A stretch of DNA of 29,197 nucleotides from a virus. Positions 7,436-26,010 of the stretch are shown here, piece after piece; the first letter of the stretch is position 1; each line of letters begins with the position of its first letter. The position numbers and the translations under genes are program-made. The DNA is taken from positions 1-29,197 of IMG/VR virus record IMGVR_UViG_3300025087_000257. One strand, 5' to 3'. The notes below the pieces were generated by a model that was not told the DNA's origin, ran no database searches, and was given only the letters and a program-made list of their open reading frames with translations.

Positions 7436-9805
7436 ATGCCTATAGATTTCTCTAAACTACCCACTAGTCAGGTAAAGGGTAAAATAGATTTCAGCAAACT
7501 AATACCTATTGCTACAAAACAAGAACCGGTAGAAAATCCTAATCAGAAATACATAGACCAGTTAGAAGCGTCTGGTAAGTCTGCTGCGGATTTAGCCAAG
7601 AACTCTTGGGTTGTTACTCCTTCTGCTAGTTTAAAAGGTGCGGGTAAGATATTGGATTTGGGTTCTAATATACCAGCGGCTCTTATTGATTATTCCACCA
7701 AATCTACAGACCCGACAGAAAAATATATAGCGAGAACACTATCAGAAGCTATGTCTGTAGCTATAAAAGAAAATAAGAGAGTAGGAGATGTGTTGTCTGA
7801 TAAGTTCGGGAACCCCAATAAACCCACCTATGGTAATGCTGCAATATATGGTAGTGCTATGTTAAAAACTCTTGCAGATTTTGGCGGCGATTTAAACCTA
7901 CTACCACTTGGAAAGATGATAAAAATGGTTAAGGGTTCTTCTACTTTAGCCAAGACAATGATTAAAGAGGGTGTTGGTTTAGTGGAAAAAGGTGTCGCTA
8001 AAGAAGTTGCGAGTACAGCCACGGAGAAGGCACCATCTTTAATATCAGAGTTCCACGGTACACAGAAAACGGTAGACGAAGGATTTGACGTTGTAAAGAA
8101 AGCAATAGATTACAATAGTATGCCAAAACCAGGGGCAGACCAAACACTATTCACCAAGATAACAGATGTTTTTAAAGATGTTAAGCCACTAATGAAAAAA
8201 CAAGAAACTATTTATAGTCAAGTAAGAAAGGAACGACTTGGTAAGGCAATGGCTGTTGGTAAAGATGTGCCGGGTTTAGATAAGGTTAAAGCAATGAAAT
8301 CCCAACTTGGCGGAGAAATAGATAAGGTAGAATTTGAATCTGTTGTTAAGAAGTTTTCACAAAATGAACTTAACAGGATAGTACAGTTGGTAGATGAAAG
8401 TCCGAAGTTGGCTGGTTTTGAGAAAGTTAATGCGTTAAATGGTATCGAAAGAATTATGGGTGAAAGGGGTGGTTCTCTTCCCAGACCCCACGAGTTAGAA
8501 TTACTAGAAAGAGTGTTTCCTAAAGAAGTGGTAAATGCTATGTTGGAATCAAGACCCTTTTGGACTAAAGCTAAAGAACTGGGTTATGAGATTGCCAATG
8601 TTCCTAGAGCGATAATGTCGTCTTTTGACTTATCTGCACCATTTAGACAGGGATTATTTATGTCGTCAAGAAAAGAGTTCTGGACTTCCTTGAAACCAAT
8701 GGTTAAATCTTTTGGGAGCGACAAAGCATTTGATGCGGTAAATGATAGTATTGTTAAGAGTGCAAACTATGAACTTATGAAAGAAAGTGGGCTTAGTTTA
8801 ACAAATCTTTTAACATCATCTGTAGCTAGAGAAGAGAAGTTTGCATCACAACTGGCGGAGAAAATACCAGTTTTTGGAAGAGGCATAAAGGCTTCGGGTA
8901 GGGCGTATACATCATTTCTTAATAAACTAAGGGTAGACACGTTTAATAGCCTTGTAAGCAATGCAGAAAAGGCTGGACTAAAACCATTAGAAAATATGGA
9001 ACTAACCAAAGAAATAGCACATTTTATTAATGCTGGAACTGGTAGGGGTAACTTGTTTAAGTCAATAGAGGGTTCTCAGGGTGCGGCAAAGGCTCTTAAT
9101 TCCTTCTTTTTCTCTCCAAGACTTATGTCATCTCGTATGACGCTTCTTAACCCAGTGTATTATGTTAAGGCAGACCCTTTTGTTAGGAAAGAAGCATTGA
9201 AATCTTTATTTGCATTAGCAGCTACAGCCACTACAGTAAATGCACTTGCCAAGGCTGGTGGTGCAGATGTTACCGTTGACCCAAGGAGTGCTGATTTTGG
9301 GAAGATAAAGATAGGAAACACTAGGGTTGATATTCTTGGTGGATTTCAACAGTATATAAGAGCGGCGGCACAATTAGCAACAGGTAAGACAGTTAATTCT
9401 CAAACAGGTAAGGAATATACATTAGGAGAAGGATATAAACCACAAACCAGACTAGATATATTGGCTAAGAATATAGAATATAAGGAAGCACCAATAGCAT
9501 CTTTTGTTACAGCATTGCTTAGGGGTAAAACATCATTTGGAGAAGATTTGAATGTTCCAAGGGAAGTAGCAATGAGAATGGTTCCAATGATAACACAGGA
9601 TTTAAAAGAGTTGTATGACGAAGACCCCAAACTACTACCTCTTGCTGTAGCAAGTGCATTGGGTTTTGGTATACAAACATATAAGGATAAATCTCCAGCA
9701 GAAAGACTAAAAGAGAAACAAGGTGTAAATGCCGAGAAGTTCTCTAAAGAAAACATACAGAAAAGAAGAGAAGAAATAATTAGAAAATACACAAAGGGCA
9801 AATAA
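7436..9805 (+). CDS. Large ejection-type virion protein with LPD38-like C-terminal region
   Basis: A 789-residue protein behind AAGGGGATAAA. IDFSKL occurs twice near the N-terminus (residues 3-8 and 17-22). Residues about 110-190 have apolar helices. The best conserved part is about 480-720: NAGTGRGNL, LNSFFFSPRLMSSRM, NPVYYV, VRKEALKSL, an Ala-rich apolar helix, DPRSADFGKIKIGNTRVDILGG and QQYIRAAAQL. That pattern resembles the large polyvalent protein associated domain LPD38 of phage and mobile-element proteins. As the longest of the three proteins before the spike, it most likely plays the part of T7 gp16 or P22 gp16/gp20. No lytic transglycosylase motif is visible. The stop overlaps the tail-spike ATG (TAATG). 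Confidence 0.65.
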   Translation: MPIDFSKLPTSQVKGKIDFSKLIPIATKQEPVENPNQKYIDQLEASGKSAADLAKNSWVVTPSASLKGAGKILDLGSNIPAALIDYSTKSTDPTEKYIARTLSEAMSVAIKENKRVGDVLSDKFGNPNKPTYGNAAIYGSAMLKTLADFGGDLNLLPLGKMIKMVKGSSTLAKTMIKEGVGLVEKGVAKEVASTATEKAPSLISEFHGTQKTVDEGFDVVKKAIDYNSMPKPGADQTLFTKITDVFKDVKPLMKKQETIYSQVRKERLGKAMAVGKDVPGLDKVKAMKSQLGGEIDKVEFESVVKKFSQNELNRIVQLVDESPKLAGFEKVNALNGIERIMGERGGSLPRPHELELLERVFPKEVVNAMLESRPFWTKAKELGYEIANVPRAIMSSFDLSAPFRQGLFMSSRKEFWTSLKPMVKSFGSDKAFDAVNDSIVKSANYELMKESGLSLTNLLTSSVAREEKFASQLAEKIPVFGRGIKASGRAYTSFLNKLRVDTFNSLVSNAEKAGLKPLENMELTKEIAHFINAGTGRGNLFKSIEGSQGAAKALNSFFFSPRLMSSRMTLLNPVYYVKADPFVRKEALKSLFALAATATTVNALAKAGGADVTVDPRSADFGKIKIGNTRVDILGGFQQYIRAAAQLATGKTVNSQTGKEYTLGEGYKPQTRLDILAKNIEYKEAPIASFVTALLRGKTSFGEDLNVPREVAMRMVPMITQDLKELYDEDPKLLPLAVASALGFGIQTYKDKSPAERLKEKQGVNAEKFSKENIQKRREEIIRKYTKGK

Positions 9806-13984: not shown

Positions 13985-14209
13985 TTACTTACTAGTTCCA
14001 AATATCTGACCAAATAACTCATTAACTGCATTATCCTGACCTACATGAAAAGTGTTTGGTGCTTCCCCTAATTCTGCATTTTCAATCCTTAAACAATCCT
14101 TGAACGACTGCTTTAATATGTGACACACCTTTAGTTGATTGTTGGGTGTTAGCACCGAACTAGCCATTATATCCCGTTTAATCTTAGAGAATATCTGTGG
14201 TAGTTCCAT
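13985..14209 (-). CDS. Small hypothetical protein, last gene of the minus arm
   Basis: A 74-residue protein of unknown function. A TTG at 14224 is also open, but the ATG at 14209 overlaps the upstream stop (TAATG) and has GGAGGA four bases ahead, so it is preferred. The sequence is hydrophilic, with a helical middle (LKVCHILKQSFKDCLRIENAE). No domain is recognised. Confidence 0.6.
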   Translation of the reverse strand: MELPQIFSKIKRDIMASSVLTPNNQLKVCHILKQSFKDCLRIENAELGEAPNTFHVGQDNAVNELFGQIFGTSK

Positions 14210-15093: not shown

Positions 15094-15150
15094 ATCCCCT
15101 CCGTGATATAGCTGTTTTATACCCCTAAATCGCTCTAGGATTGATTCTGG

Positions 15151-15166
15151 TGGACTTTAATGTCCA
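15151..15166. repeat. Short perfect inverted repeat in the 15094-15232 spacer
   Basis: TGGAC and GTCCA flank a six-base loop. The surrounding 139-base spacer also holds a CGAGT/ACTCG pair and no convincing gene. The left arm carries the TGGACT string that recurs at 15714, 16116 and 16231. Possible operator or RNA hairpin; function unknown. Confidence 0.35.
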
Positions 15167-15232
15167 AAACGAGTGTAAGTACGTTGTAATAATTAAACTC
15201 GCTACAGCCAATCGTGGTGATGTTGTGAGCGT

Positions 15233-15550
15233 CTACAATAACCTCATAATACTATTGAATTTCCTTAAAGGAATAACAAGATAACCGCTATCTTTATAAC
15301 CTTCATTAAGAAGGGCTATTTTAGTTTCTTTTCTATCTTTGTTTATTAGTGATTTCACGATAAAGTCTGGCTCGGTGCAGTTATCCCAAAATTTATTTCT
15401 ATACGGTTTTAAATCGTTCATTGCCTCAAAGAAGTCATTATTTGTCTTGCCCACACATTGGGAACCAATATAAAAAGATTTCATTTCTTGTTTATCTAAA
15501 CAGGATAGTGTTATAGTTGGACCATTGTTTAGTTTAATTTTTTGTTTCAT
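15233..15550 (-). CDS. Hypothetical protein
   Basis: A 105-residue protein, mixed alpha/beta and slightly basic, with GAGAGG ahead of the ATG. It overlaps the small upstream gene by 17 bases. The middle (FFEAMNDLKPYRNKFWDNC) looks helical and the end (SGYLVIPLRKFNSIMRLL) beta then helix. No family recognised. Confidence 0.6.
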   Translation of the reverse strand: MKQKIKLNNGPTITLSCLDKQEMKSFYIGSQCVGKTNNDFFEAMNDLKPYRNKFWDNCTEPDFIVKSLINKDRKETKIALLNEGYKDSGYLVIPLRKFNSIMRLL

Positions 15551-15683
15551 TTAACCTCTCTATTAAAATATAGTCATAAATAAGGTATTTGGTAATATAT
15601 GGTATAACGGTGTCAATGTTTTTATCATCACACGCCATAAGAAAACTCTCATAATTATCACCACTTACCGTTATTTTATACAC
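15534..15683 (-). CDS. 49-residue hypothetical protein, GTG start
   Basis: A short open frame starting with GTG at 15683 behind a textbook AAAAGGAGGATTAA, ending at the TAA at 15534-15536 inside the next gene. The product starts VYKITVSGDNYESFLMACDD and continues with an apolar, tyrosine-rich stretch (PYITKYLIYDYILIERL). The ribosome binding site and coupling to the next gene are the main support. No family recognised. Confidence 0.55.
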   Translation of the reverse strand: MYKITVSGDNYESFLMACDDKNIDTVIPYITKYLIYDYILIERLNETKN

Positions 15684-15932
15684 TTAATCCTCCTTTTAAT
15701 TGAGATAGGCGATTGGACTTACGGGATATACCCAGTATATCTTGCCAATACTTGCTGTCCGCTATTCTCGTCAGAACCTACCCCACAAGACCCCGTGAAT
15801 TATGCTTGCTCAGAACGTCATCTAAGTCAGAGGCACACAGGGTAACTCAAAACCCAGAGATTTGTGCTTGCCACACTTTAGCGTGGTATAGGCATACTGG
15901 GTCAATCATTTATTGGAGGCGGGGATGACACC

Positions 15933-15944
15933 GTGAAATTTCAC
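15933..15944. promoter_or_regulatory. 12-base perfect palindrome
   Basis: GTGAAATTTCAC is fully self-complementary and could be the site of a dimeric DNA-binding protein. It lies in the middle of the non-coding stretch. No cognate protein is known. Confidence 0.35.
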
Positions 15945-15985
15945 CTATAGGCATCTTATCGGCTGTGCTAAGCACAATTAAGTCA

Positions 15986-16017
15986 ACCCGCCATTTTAGC
16001 AAGGTGGGTGGGTTTTT
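15986..16017 (+). terminator. Plus-strand intrinsic terminator-like hairpin
   Basis: AACCCGCC pairs with GGTGGGTT (one G-T pair) around a 14-base loop and runs into TTTTT. No plus-strand protein gene precedes it, so it supports a non-coding plus-strand transcript. On the minus strand no T-run follows. Confidence 0.5.
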
Positions 16018-16235
16018 CGAGGGACTAACCCCTAGATTATTTCCCACCCCAAGCCATCTCGTCGCTCCCTTACTACCTCTCTATTTACTATCCCCACTTT
16101 TACCCTGTAGGGCGACTGGACTTATTTTCCCACAAATTTAGCGGGAACTGCCAATCCTTCGGTTGAGAGGATTTTGGATTAAGCAAGGCAACCACTTTTG
16201 TTCTTTGGGGTCTATCCACATAGCCTAGAGGTGGA
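16018..16235. other. Remaining non-coding stretch beside the structured locus
   Basis: I see no supported gene here. The open frame on the minus strand at 16100-16309 has no ribosome binding site and runs out of frame through the gene at 16236. Small hairpins are possible (CCCT/AGGG around 16103-16112; GGTTG/CAACC at about 16160-16192). One copy of the direct repeat lies at 16111-16124. Confidence 0.4.
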
Positions 16236-16257
16236 CTATCCTTTCGGAACCTCGCTA
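16221..16257. repeat. Nine-base-pair hairpin across the stop codon of the HNH-like gene
   Basis: TAGC (16221-16224) pairs with GCTA (16254-16257) and GAGGT (16228-16232) with ACCTC (16249-16253), with a three-base bulge and a 16-base loop that holds the stop codon. No T-run follows on either strand, so an RNA-stability or processing role is more likely than termination. Confidence 0.4.
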
Positions 16258-16538
16258 AAGAAATAACAATACTCACATTCTTTAAACAATTTCTTTCTGC
16301 ACCCATCAAAGTAATCGTAATTATCTTTGGCTAGTTGAAAGTCATCAAAGAACTTCTCTTTCAAACCTTCCACCCATTTCCAATTATCTTGATGTCCAGA
16401 CCACGCTTGTTCAAAGAAATGAAGGCAACATAATCCAACACCGCTTCTGTGAGAACCACCAAAGATATGATGAATTTCTCCCTGATAATACTGGTGCCAC
16501 AACTTTGCATTGAATTTGTACGCCTTCTCGTCAATCAT
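16236..16538 (-). CDS. HNH-like nuclease of the 'HHIFGG' phage recombination type, apparently leaderless
   Basis: A 100-residue protein. GEIHHIFGGSHRSGVGLCCLH (residues about 20-40) followed by GHQDN resembles the HHIFGG..R...GL...LC..(C)H core of small phage HNH-fold proteins linked to recombination, and a further cysteine pair (CEYC) lies near the end. A nuclease role is likely but the spacing differs from better-known members. No Shine-Dalgarno sequence precedes the ATG; instead a perfect promoter ends five bases upstream, so the message may start at or next to the start codon. The gene lies just after the RusA-type resolvase, fitting a recombination pair. Confidence 0.6.
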   Translation of the reverse strand: MIDEKAYKFNAKLWHQYYQGEIHHIFGGSHRSGVGLCCLHFFEQAWSGHQDNWKWVEGLKEKFFDDFQLAKDNYDYFDGCRKKLFKECEYCYFFSEVPKG

Positions 16539-16543
16539 AATAC

Positions 16544-16572
16544 ATTATACCATATTTATTTGGGAATGTCAA
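16544..16572 (-). promoter_or_regulatory. Perfect sigma70-type promoter with extended -10
   Basis: On the minus strand TTGACA (16567-16572), a 17-base spacer and TATAAT (16544-16549), with TGG just before the -10. It lies across the end of the resolvase gene and is aimed at the HNH-like gene, whose ATG begins five bases past the -10, and beyond it the structured locus. Confidence 0.85.
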
Positions 16573-16933
16573 GAGAAAACTTTTCTATTTTTATCTCAAC
16601 CCTTGGATTTAATTTATCTAGGTTCTTTGTCCCAGACCATTTATAGAACTGTGAATCATTGTGTATCACTTCGTAATCTTGAAGCAAGTCCCAGATAGAC
16701 TGTTCCATATTAACCCCATCTCTTATTGTTATTCTATTAGATGTAAACCAGTCAATATGTATCTGTAGCTTATCTTCTTTTAAGAACTTTCCCTTGTGTT
16801 CCCCTGTAATCTGTCTACCGAAATCTTTAGCATATTGAATAAATCTAGCATTTGGAACAAGCCTTCTTAATCGGAACACAAACACTTGGCTTGTTTTCTT
16901 CCCGACACAATCACCGTGAACTACGATTATCAT
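16556..16933 (-). CDS. rusA: RusA-type Holliday junction resolvase
   Basis: A 125-residue protein matching the RusA fold. The N-terminus has a short beta strand then GKKTSQVFVFRLRRLVPNARFIQYAKDF, like the G.P..K.R.R....Y.....Y opening. Residues 56-75 have LQIHIDWF then RDGVN, with Asp72 and Asn75 in place of the usual D.DN; HNDSQFY at 91-97 matches the (D/N)D.Q motif with Asp93; the end has RVEIKIEKF. RusA enzymes are dimers that cut four-way junctions left by recombination or replication. The first motif is reduced compared with the classic D.DN. The start has only a weak ribosome binding site and overlaps the upstream gene by 23 bases. Confidence 0.75.
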   Translation of the reverse strand: MIIVVHGDCVGKKTSQVFVFRLRRLVPNARFIQYAKDFGRQITGEHKGKFLKEDKLQIHIDWFTSNRITIRDGVNMEQSIWDLLQDYEVIHNDSQFYKWSGTKNLDKLNPRVEIKIEKFSLDIPK

Positions 16934-18458: not shown

Positions 18459-20384
18459 CTACCCCTCAAACACTTTAGATTTTATAATACTCTTATTCTT
18501 TATCTCCCAATACTTACCCTTTGTTTCTAGTATGCCAAACCCGTGGTTCCATTTATTCACAGGTGCATATTCAGGGTGCATATTGCAGTTAGATGATATA
18601 AACTGATGACCATTTCTTCTAACCACCAACCAACCAGTATCCGAAGTAAAATCATATACCAGACCGTTATATTTAACGACCGACACGTTTGGTGCAAAAA
18701 CATTATTTGTCTTTCGTACACGGACTATATTTATTCTTGCATTTTTCTTAAAGTTGGTATCTTGATATCTAACATGTATCTTGCCGTTATATCCAATTTT
18801 TTGTATTAGCTCTAGATAATCTTGAGCCAAATTGTCAGATATTGTTGCAATATACATTGAACCTGCTTTTGTCGTACTACCGTCTGCCGACACCAACACA
18901 CCCAACAACTCTTTTAAAAACTCGGAATCCGAACCAAGTATCTTTCTTGGTATTCTTTTTTCAAATACACCTCCCCATATTTTAGATATTACCGTTTTTG
19001 TAGATTCGACATTTAACCTAACACGACTACAACTAGAACGCTTATCAACATAAACACTAAACACCAAATTAAGTTTTTTAACCAATTCTATTATTTTACT
19101 TAATTGTGGTTGTTTCTTTTGGTATATTGTTATGCGTTGACCATCGTAACTCCCCTCTGTAACTATCCACATACAGAGTTTAGACAGGTCTTTGTTAAAT
19201 TGTGTTGAACTGTCAAACGGTGCAGATGATTTAAAATTGTATTTTCCATTACCATCATATATCCTTTGAGCTGTTTTGTGTATTAATTTACCAGAATGGT
19301 CACAATACATCATTTTGTGGTCAGGCGTTACAAGAGCATCTATTCTGCACCCTTTAAAACTAATCATGTTTCCACTGTACTCGAACACCTGTCTTGCTTT
19401 GGGTTTAGATAGTTTAACGGTATCTGTTGTCTTATCATAAACCCCTATTAAATCAGAATCTTTAACATCTTTAAATAGCTTATACCCATCCTGTGTTAAT
19501 ATTTCTGTATCATCAGAATAACAAAGACAACCACTACTCCAACAGGTTTTAATATCCCCGTTTAAATCTGTTTCAGTGTAAGTGGAAGAACGGTGCCAAT
19601 GAGTGACATACGTACAAGCACCAGTCCTAAGGAACACTCCCCTTGCAGGATATGCAGAAGATACAGAACCAAACTCATCTCCGTGACCTATTGTCAACTT
19701 CTGGTATCTCAACAAACTAGTGTGCGGTATTGTCTTCACCTTCAACCGCTCTAGGTCGTATATCTTCTCAAATGATAAAGAGGGTAGTTTAAACAGTATC
19801 GGTGCTTTCTGCATAAGGAACCTGCTTAAACGGTGTTCGTGGTTTCCCATCTTCCAGATAGTTGCAGAAGGTTTTATTATCCTACTAATCTCATATATCA
19901 TCTTCTTAACCATTGCAATTTCCCCAAGGAAATCTCTCTGTGAGGGGTCTTTATCAAATGTGGATAGGGAATAGCAGTCTGATAAATCTCCGGGGTAGAT
20001 TATCCCGTCACATTTTTCCTTCTTACCAAATGCCACCGCCACTTCAATAGCTTTTAAGTCAAAATAGGGTATGTGCATATCTGGAAGAAGAAGCCATTTA
20101 TAAGCACCTGTCAGGTTCTCAACCTTAAACGGTGTTTCATCTGGTATTATGGATTTTATCCCTTTGGATATTTCTATCTGCTCTTTGGTTCGTATCTGCA
20201 CGGCATTTTTCCTAGATTTCTTATTCCCCCGTGCACCTCTTGCCTGTCTTATGCTATCTCTTGCCTGTTCCGCATCTTTAAACAATAATTTGTTATCCGA
20301 ATACAACATTTTGGCAAGTGTTAAAGACGGTTCGTAAGGATATTTCTTTACCAACTCTCTAGCCATTTCCACTTTTGTTTTCAC
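18459..20384 (-). CDS. Calcineurin-like metallophosphoesterase interrupted by an intein
   Basis: A 641-residue precursor with a GTG start behind GGGGG. Residues 1-90 are a helical, basic lead. The phosphoesterase core follows: PDMHIP (Asp102, His104), GDLSD (132-136), GNHEH (180-184), GHGDE (233-237) and THWH (261-264), the metal-binding set of calcineurin-like enzymes, which hydrolyse phosphoesters in nucleic acids, nucleotides or proteins. The core is split after WSSGCL by a 312-residue intein (288-599); splicing would join CL to CNMHPEYAPVNKWNHGF and yield a 329-residue enzyme. The junction lies in a conserved strand close to the active site. Its place between SSB and resolvase genes suggests a DNA-related role, but the substrate is unknown. 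Confidence 0.85.
   Translation of the reverse strand: MKTKVEMARELVKKYPYEPSLTLAKMLYSDNKLLFKDAEQARDSIRQARGARGNKKSRKNAVQIRTKEQIEISKGIKSIIPDETPFKVENLTGAYKWLLLPDMHIPYFDLKAIEVAVAFGKKEKCDGIIYPGDLSDCYSLSTFDKDPSQRDFLGEIAMVKKMIYEISRIIKPSATIWKMGNHEHRLSRFLMQKAPILFKLPSLSFEKIYDLERLKVKTIPHTSLLRYQKLTIGHGDEFGSVSSAYPARGVFLRTGACTYVTHWHRSSTYTETDLNGDIKTCWSSGCLCYSDDTEILTQDGYKLFKDVKDSDLIGVYDKTTDTVKLSKPKARQVFEYSGNMISFKGCRIDALVTPDHKMMYCDHSGKLIHKTAQRIYDGNGKYNFKSSAPFDSSTQFNKDLSKLCMWIVTEGSYDGQRITIYQKKQPQLSKIIELVKKLNLVFSVYVDKRSSCSRVRLNVESTKTVISKIWGGVFEKRIPRKILGSDSEFLKELLGVLVSADGSTTKAGSMYIATISDNLAQDYLELIQKIGYNGKIHVRYQDTNFKKNARINIVRVRKTNNVFAPNVSVVKYNGLVYDFTSDTGWLVVRRNGHQFISSNCNMHPEYAPVNKWNHGFGILETKGKYWEIKNKSIIKSKVFEG
18588..19523 (-). 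other. Intein with LAGLIDADG homing endonuclease
   Basis: A 312-residue insertion. Cys288 starts block A (CYSDDTEILTQDG), TPDH at 353-356 is block B, two LAGLIDADG-like helices lie at 403-412 (LCMWIVTEGS, acidic Glu410) and 493-503 (LLGVLVSADGS, acidic Asp501), and VYDFTSDTGWLVVRRNG (576-592) with HQFISSN closes the splicing domain, followed by Cys600 as the +1 nucleophile. The penultimate residue is Ser598 rather than the usual His, and block F has Trp where His is common; both changes occur among known inteins but may slow splicing. Confidence 0.85.
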
Positions 20385-21654: not shown

Positions 21655-21959
21655 AGTTTTGCCTCTGGGTGCTGTTCTGGGTCTAAATCCTGCAACAGAA
21701 ACCCTACTCCCATAGCCAAATCGTGTGCCTGTTCTAATGTAATAGACATCTTTCTATCACATAGTAAATCGTGTATCACAACATTACCGTCAATATGTTC
21801 CAACACTACTTCTTCTTTCCCTGTTTCTTGTACTTTTTCATACACATTACCACCTATAACTTCATATATATCCGTACCACCACCATTACCCTTAGAATTA
21901 AACACGTTCCAGTTGTCCCATATACCACCCAGTTTACCAAGAAGTCTAAATTGTGCCAT
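21651..21959 (-). CDS. Hypothetical protein
   Basis: A 102-residue acidic protein behind AAAGGAGGGAAAA. A glycine-rich part (SKGNGGGTDIYEVIGG) is followed by strands and a C-terminal helix (TLEQAHDLAMGVGFLLQDL). Its start overlaps the upstream stop by one base. No family recognised. Confidence 0.55.
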   Translation of the reverse strand: MAQFRLLGKLGGIWDNWNVFNSKGNGGGTDIYEVIGGNVYEKVQETGKEEVVLEHIDGNVVIHDLLCDRKMSITLEQAHDLAMGVGFLLQDLDPEQHPEAKL

Positions 21960-24957: not shown

Positions 24958-25018
24958 TTGTATCTCTCCAGTAGATGTAAAGAATTGCCAGTATTACAAC
25001 CACTAATATAAATTTCAT
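24938..25018 (-). CDS. 26-residue single-helix membrane peptide
   Basis: ATG at 25018 follows AGGAGG and overlaps the stop of the radical SAM gene (ATGA). The product is nearly all one membrane helix (MKFILVVVILAILYIYW) with a short polar tail, and it ends 20 bases inside the zinc-ribbon gene. The strong ribosome binding site and the gene-end coupling favour a real gene, but its shortness leaves doubt. Confidence 0.5.
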   Translation of the reverse strand: MKFILVVVILAILYIYWRDTNGRGGY

Positions 25019-26010
25019 ACCAACCTCCTGTTTTCTAAATTAGTTTCTCTTTGATATTTTTCCCACTTATTATTATAGGCAACACAAACATCAAGACAGT
25101 TTTTCCTACAAATAGAATCCTCTTGGCAGTTGTGGCTTCTATACCAGTCTAATCTTTCTTTTCTTATAGTTTTTGTGTTTTGTGTTGTTCCTACGGGGTT
25201 TCCTTGTTCCCTCATATAGATAATACAAGGGAAATGATAAAGACCCGCTATTGCCATATCATCAAGAACCAACGGACATTTTTTAGTGTCAGATATTCCT
25301 ATACCCCTAACTGGCAATCCTTTTTTTATGTTTTCAATTCTGTATTTCAATATTTTATGCTCTTCTAAAACATTATCATCTATGTTTATTTCTTTTTTTA
25401 GTTTGTTGTGCTGTGATGATGGTATTATCCTTATATCCTTAACTCCTAGTGAGTGTGCAAAATTGACCACTTCTTCCAGTTTTGACATATTTTCTTCTGT
25501 TAAAACAACTCCGACCGAAACATAAACTCTTTTAGATAACACCTCTATATTGTTTTTTATGACATCAAAAACATCTATACCACCGTTCATTGTTTTTGCC
25601 ATAGAAGAGCAACAAGCATCTAGTGATATACTAAAATCATTAACCCCACTATCTATTAACTCTAAATATTTATTTGTATTGGCAGAACCATTTGTAGATA
25701 TTGCTATTTTCTCTATACCACCGCTTTTTGCCAGTTTAACGAGTTCGTTTAACCTAGGATATGTAGTGGGTTCCCCACCAGAAAAACGTATTGCGTAGAG
25801 TTTTTCACTTATAAAATATTCCACCATTTCTTTTGCGTGTTCGTACGGCATTACACCTTTAATGTCTTCTCTTAATCCCCTACAATAGGGGCATTTAAAA
25901 TTGCACTTATCCGTTAGTATAATTTCGCAACGTGATAATCTTGTTGTGTGGTCTGCTTCTTTTGCTCTTTTATCAGATAGTGTGTAAAATCCAATATCTT
26001 CTAGTTTCAT
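25015..26010 (-). CDS. Radical SAM protein with SPASM-like C-terminal cysteines
   Basis: A 331-residue protein. CNFKCPYC at 36-43 is the CxxxCxxC motif that holds the 4Fe-4S cluster used with S-adenosylmethionine; RFSGGEPTTYP (75-85) is the GGEP motif, and ISTNGS and ISLDAC follow as in the MoaA/PqqE-like barrel. The C-terminus holds more cysteines (C.EDSICRKNCLDVC), as in SPASM or twitch domains that carry a second cluster and often modify peptides. The substrate is unknown. It is coupled by ATGA overlaps to the 89-residue gene before it and the membrane peptide after it. Confidence 0.85.
   Translation of the reverse strand: MKLEDIGFYTLSDKRAKEADHTTRLSRCEIILTDKCNFKCPYCRGLREDIKGVMPYEHAKEMVEYFISEKLYAIRFSGGEPTTYPRLNELVKLAKSGGIEKIAISTNGSANTNKYLELIDSGVNDFSISLDACCSSMAKTMNGGIDVFDVIKNNIEVLSKRVYVSVGVVLTEENMSKLEEVVNFAHSLGVKDIRIIPSSQHNKLKKEINIDDNVLEEHKILKYRIENIKKGLPVRGIGISDTKKCPLVLDDMAIAGLYHFPCIIYMREQGNPVGTTQNTKTIRKERLDWYRSHNCQEDSICRKNCLDVCVAYNNKWEKYQRETNLENRRLV

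Follow-up and report, generated by a model that had tools for sequence, protein, structure and literature searches.

The window analysed here (the whole 29-kb stretch, a fragment consisting of a single viral record) contains a non-coding spacer, at positions 15684–16235, with a similar small hairpin module near each end of its minus strand. The module recurs nine times between genes of one other, unrelated virus, and is therefore probably a real, uncharacterised mRNA element. The spacer as a whole is tentatively explained as a cis-acting structured intercistronic element of the minus-strand early/replication mRNA. It is most likely read from the minus strand, opposite to the direction proposed in the initial annotation.

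The plus strand of the window carries structural genes as far as about 13.9 kb, and from about 14 kb on the minus strand is occupied by a compact cluster with replication genes, encoding a RusA-like resolvase, a metallophosphoesterase, SSB, a Cas4-like exonuclease, a radical SAM protein and DnaB. The metallophosphoesterase reading frame (18459–20384, minus strand) is interrupted at 18588–19521 by an intein of about 311 aa (CYSDDTEIL...QFISSN, followed by C) that contains a LAGLIDADG-like domain; in a close relative, the contig L027 (metagenome 3300009285), which has 85–94% identity to the window over its 3.5 kb, this gene is intein-free, with an exact empty site. The radical SAM protein (25015–26010, minus strand) shares 48–59% identity with proteins encoded by other viral contigs, one of which is a 735-kb phage record, and most of the neighbouring proteins have no relatives. 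At the end of the contig (28970–29197), there is a 60-bp tandem repeat in three copies that are 93–96% identical. The spacer lies inside the minus-strand operon and comprises 552 gene-free bases, making it the largest gap in the window (ORF tables, by inspection), and it is also the G+C peak of the window (46%, versus a mean of 38%). It begins at the stop codon (16236) of an upstream gene for a 100-aa protein (16236–16538, minus strand) and ends at the GTG start (15683) of a downstream gene for a 49-aa protein (15534–15683, minus strand; codon log-odds 0.18), which has a GGAGG ribosome-binding site at 15693–15689. Both flanking reading frames appear complete and score as gene-like. The two main plus-strand ORFs of the gap have codon log-odds of -0.14 and -0.15, versus +0.09 to +0.27 for the well-supported genes of the window, and the gap has no Pfam matches. 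A protein-coding gap, for which there is no frame, was rejected on these grounds, and the initial annotation was right to see no convincing gene here.

On the minus strand, the two copies of the module are 403 bases apart and follow the plan AUUGG-C-[variable hairpin]-UAAGU-CCAAU. W1 (15708–15749), with five outer pairs, consists of AUUGG-C-[hairpin GAUAUAC/GUAUAUC]-UAAGU-CCAAU followed by CGCC, and reads AUUGG-CAA-hairpin-CCGUAAGU-CCAAU from 15749 to 15708. W2 (16111–16156), with six outer pairs, consists of GAUUGG-C-[hairpin UUCCCGC/GUGGGAA]-UAAGU-CCAGUC followed by GCC, and reads GAUUGG-CAG-hairpin-AAUAAGU-CCAGUC from 16156 to 16111; its P1 stem forms when W2 is folded alone. W2 starts about 80 nt past the stop codon at 16236 and W1 is located towards the other end of the spacer, where the GGAGG of the 49-aa gene follows 14 bases past its end. 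The repeat is, by itself, only moderately unusual, because 7 of 300 shuffles contain a repeat of 14 nt with no more than one mismatch, but W1 and W2 also share, beyond these 14 bases, the second arm and the presence of a hairpin between the arms. Between the modules, the minus strand also carries two 24-nt direct-repeat units that are 79% identical (unit A, 15848–15871; unit B, 15786–15809).

A gapped pattern derived from W1 and W2 matched one viral contig, IMGVR_UViG_2818991546_000001 (hereafter G001; 36 kb), which encodes a ribonucleotide reductase resembling those of cyanophages. This match alone proves nothing, since one or two chance matches are expected in the whole collection (scaled from looser scans); the argument for a link is that the match belongs to a family that is conserved at the positions shared by W1 and W2 and variable at those where they differ. 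G001 contains nine copies of the module, all on its coding strand, in intercistronic spacers that are shorter than the gap in the window but otherwise ordinary, so that the module is in the sense orientation in 2/2 copies in the window and 9/9 in G001. Each G001 copy is found 7–45 bases past the stop codon of the upstream ORF, a placement not shared by W1 and W2, and the copy at 8546 is a UAAGA variant that overlaps a small ORF. Five of the copies sit 6–7 nt behind a repeated promoter-like 28-mer, GGACACTGAATTGCCATGATTACATAGG, of which there are seven copies with up to 4 mismatches (at 8510, 13916, 15529, 18078, 21960, 24623 and 29347) and which is possibly a phage promoter. G001 also contains 23 copies of TAATCAGGGTCCAnnnnnCACTCCTT, all on a single strand, mostly as tandem pairs within stems and with a variable 5-nt centre (for example at 13995–14150 and 21710–21865); they look like an array of operators, recombination sites or RNA-binding sites. 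The two viruses thus have in common the GG-C-[hairpin]-UAAGU-CC core, the covarying outer stem, the sense orientation and the intercistronic position, whereas the tandem TAATCAGGGTCCAnnnnnCACTCCTT units and the promoter-like 28-mer are seen in G001 but not in the window. No shared proteins were found between the window and G001, so no common protein partner was identified, and no Rfam match was found in G001. In several G001 copies, UAAG could pair with CUUA in the inner hairpin, and the bulged state of UAAGU is therefore not certain; it may instead act as a switching strand.

The outer stem is maintained by compensatory changes within this module family, with paired differences among copies such as GGUUGG/CCAACC, UAGUGG/CCACUA, GAUUGG/CCAAUC and CUUGG/CCAAG. 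In an alignment of ten copies, from which the copy with a bulged outer stem was left out and the inner hairpins were cut out, 93% of cells are paired, and one pair is A-U in five copies, G-C in four and C-G in one. The covariation score was 0.348, versus 0.113 in shuffles, with none of 500 shuffles scoring as high; kinship alone can beat such shuffles without any structure, but the signal vanishes when the partners are slid by 1–2 columns. When a covariance model was trained exclusively on seven G001 copies and run with filters off on both strands of the 29-kb window, its top two matches were W1 (E 0.013) and W2 (E 0.43), with a different left arm aligned in the case of W2. The same model gave a best E of 8.2 on 431 kb of other phage loci. 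G001 itself had been picked by a pattern derived from the window.

The whole gap has a folding z of -2.8 on the minus strand and -1.7 on the plus strand, the former being the second lowest value among 33 tiles of the window. The lowest, at 1300–1840 (-3.8 minus, about -3.6 plus), is a region in which an HNH endonuclease gene ends and a small CxxC ORF lies, and which has no Rfam match. The predicted minus-strand fold of the gap is ordered and multi-domain, with several helices at p > 0.9. It includes a pairing of the GGAGG of the 49-aa gene with CCUCU at the opposite edge of the gap (p 0.71), which is suggestive only. In this full-length fold, the arm of W1 prefers a different partner (p 0.53), and another helix competes with W2. 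The fold of the body of about 350 bases rests on one sequence, since no homologue of either the body or the whole gap was found.

Searches for relatives and for known RNA classes place the gap outside any named family, and it was filed as a new candidate structured intergenic phage RNA element. Rfam cmscan at gathering thresholds on the window gave no match for the gap, and a search of 15100–16600 on both strands with E up to 10 gave only three chance-level matches; the covariance search in both orientations suggested by the initial annotation thus found no known class. Group I and group II introns were rejected for lack of a core-model match on either strand. No DNA homologues of the gap region were found in phages and plasmids, and the 100-aa and 123-aa neighbour genes led to no relatives. 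The radical SAM gene led to 24 distant contigs, all without the module, and two other genes of the window led to nothing but L027, whose 3.5 kb stop short of the gap. A chromosomal RNA of cyanobacteria was rejected, because 386 genomes gave 38 matches to the pattern, versus about 57 for a reversed control pattern. Versions with other outer stems, sought in viral and genome collections, were also rejected as chance matches, each being a single copy and nearly all lying inside open frames. Nothing specific to this element was found in the literature.

The initial annotation had proposed a plus-strand RNA of 270–300 bases, antisense to the operon and ending at a terminator-like hairpin at 15986–16017. 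The hairpins it named are all present in the sequence: a three-tier stem-loop (15852–15902) that can form on either strand but is more stable on the plus strand (-21.3 versus -15.9 kcal/mol), a 12-base palindrome, GTGAAATTTCAC (15933–15944), one of only two such palindromes in the window, and the hairpin at 15986–16017, which is also more stable on the plus strand. However, they are within regional chance as single hairpins, a 51-nt segment matching the plus-strand stability of the three-tier stem being found in 13% of region-wide dinucleotide shuffles and a segment matching the putative terminator in 72%, and the inventory had missed the hairpin module repeated near either end. The hairpin at 15986–16017 is weak and bulged, with two of its five U residues in the stem, and the terminator scan reported none, such that a plus-strand terminator at this site is not borne out. 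The only plus-strand promoter-like site is a weak one (9/12 match). The inner hairpin of W1 gains two G-U pairs on the plus strand, and W2 gains G-U pairs on the minus strand, but the plus-strand fold of the whole gap is weaker than the minus-strand fold and the modules point in the same direction as the operon. The antisense RNA is thus unsupported, and we consider it highly improbable. The broader proposal of a candidate structured RNA of no known class survives, with a repeated covarying module common to another virus and no Rfam match.

Other explanations would assign the gap a different role, or none. A large structured RNA that acts independently, in the manner of ROOL or GOLLD, could be released from the minus-strand message, the two modules forming its end domains, and the length of about 550 nt without an ORF and the ordered multi-domain fold predicted for the minus strand, with its z of -2.8, would be consistent with this; however, a ribosome-binding site lies directly behind the gap and the G001 modules occur in ordinary, shorter intercistronic spacers. 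Since Rfam gave no match, ARAGORN found no tRNA anywhere in the 29-kb window and no homologue of the region as a whole was found, the resemblance to GOLLD raised in the initial annotation could not be established, and such an RNA is unlikely. The covarying stems would suit hairpins in single-stranded DNA equally well, and a site acting at the DNA level when single-stranded (an origin, a single-strand initiation hairpin or a recombination site) would also account for the repeats and palindromes and for the replication genes around the gap. This is nevertheless very unlikely, given that the spacer is rich in G+C, not in A+T, and that nine dispersed G001 copies, in one orientation after gene ends, fit an mRNA signal better; integron attC sites were rejected because their arms come in a different order from those of the module. 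W1 and W2 might, finally, be unrelated to the G001 family and the gap a neutral or decayed spacer, as the frequency of 14-nt repeats in shuffles, the chance matches that such patterns do yield in large collections and the lack of a homologue of the gap body would allow. We regard such a coincidence as quite unlikely, because the single G001 match proved to be part of a nine-copy family, conserved and variable where W1 and W2 agree and differ, whereas the chance matches of the other scans were isolated; large gaps are also rare in this compact genome.

A cis-acting element setting an mRNA border is suggested by the sense orientation, the intercistronic position and the five G001 copies directly behind the promoter-like 28-mer. 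We infer that the gap is transcribed as part of the minus-strand message, between two cistrons. Each of the two small modules near its ends has a covarying outer stem with a GG/CC closure around a variable inner hairpin, and the conserved UAAGU immediately precedes the closing CC. UAAGU and the GG-CC closure would be recognised in the transcript by a protein or nuclease of the phage or the host, and this recognition would set the cistron border through processing, protection of a new 5' end or gating of the downstream ribosome-binding site. The hairpin itself would be bound or cut, or would remain as a protective 5' end. Several observations count against this explanation: the alternative pairing of the W1 arm, the competing helix of W2, the folding energies of the modules, which do not favour the sense strand (the more stable strand is the sense strand in 6 of 11 copies), the UAAG-CUUA pairing open to several G001 copies, the lack of proteins common to the window and G001, and the failure to find a homologue of the whole gap. 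It is doubtful that the data define a new viral RNA class, i.e. a structured spacer transcript of about 550 nt in which each end is marked by a GG-C-hairpin-UAAGU-CC module that binds a partner and serves as a cistron-border signal in two unrelated viruses. If the border element is real, a compact RNA signal listed in no RNA library is common to two unrelated viruses and located where their mRNAs are divided, and UAAGU and the outer stem would be a mutable target for the study of how phage operons, lacking strong terminators, set their cistron borders. If the G001 link is coincidental, the gap is an ordinary structured spacer.

ROOL and GOLLD are large structured non-coding phage RNAs of unknown function that are often found near tRNA islands (PMC12286853). 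A homo-oligomeric RNA cage is a further mark of both families. The gap resembles them in being large, structured, phage-borne and non-coding, but membership was rejected, as there was no covariance-model match at gathering thresholds or with E up to 10; unlike them, the gap is not accompanied by tRNAs and has no whole-RNA homologues, and its conserved part is a small repeated module. The module may also resemble a conserved 16S rRNA hairpin with UUAAGUCCC, a candidate lead. T7-like phages have RNase III-type processing hairpins with internal loops, which are intercistronic, in the sense orientation and present several times per genome. The module shares all of these features; it differs in that its UAAGU/GG-CC core is conserved and in that its processing is putative.
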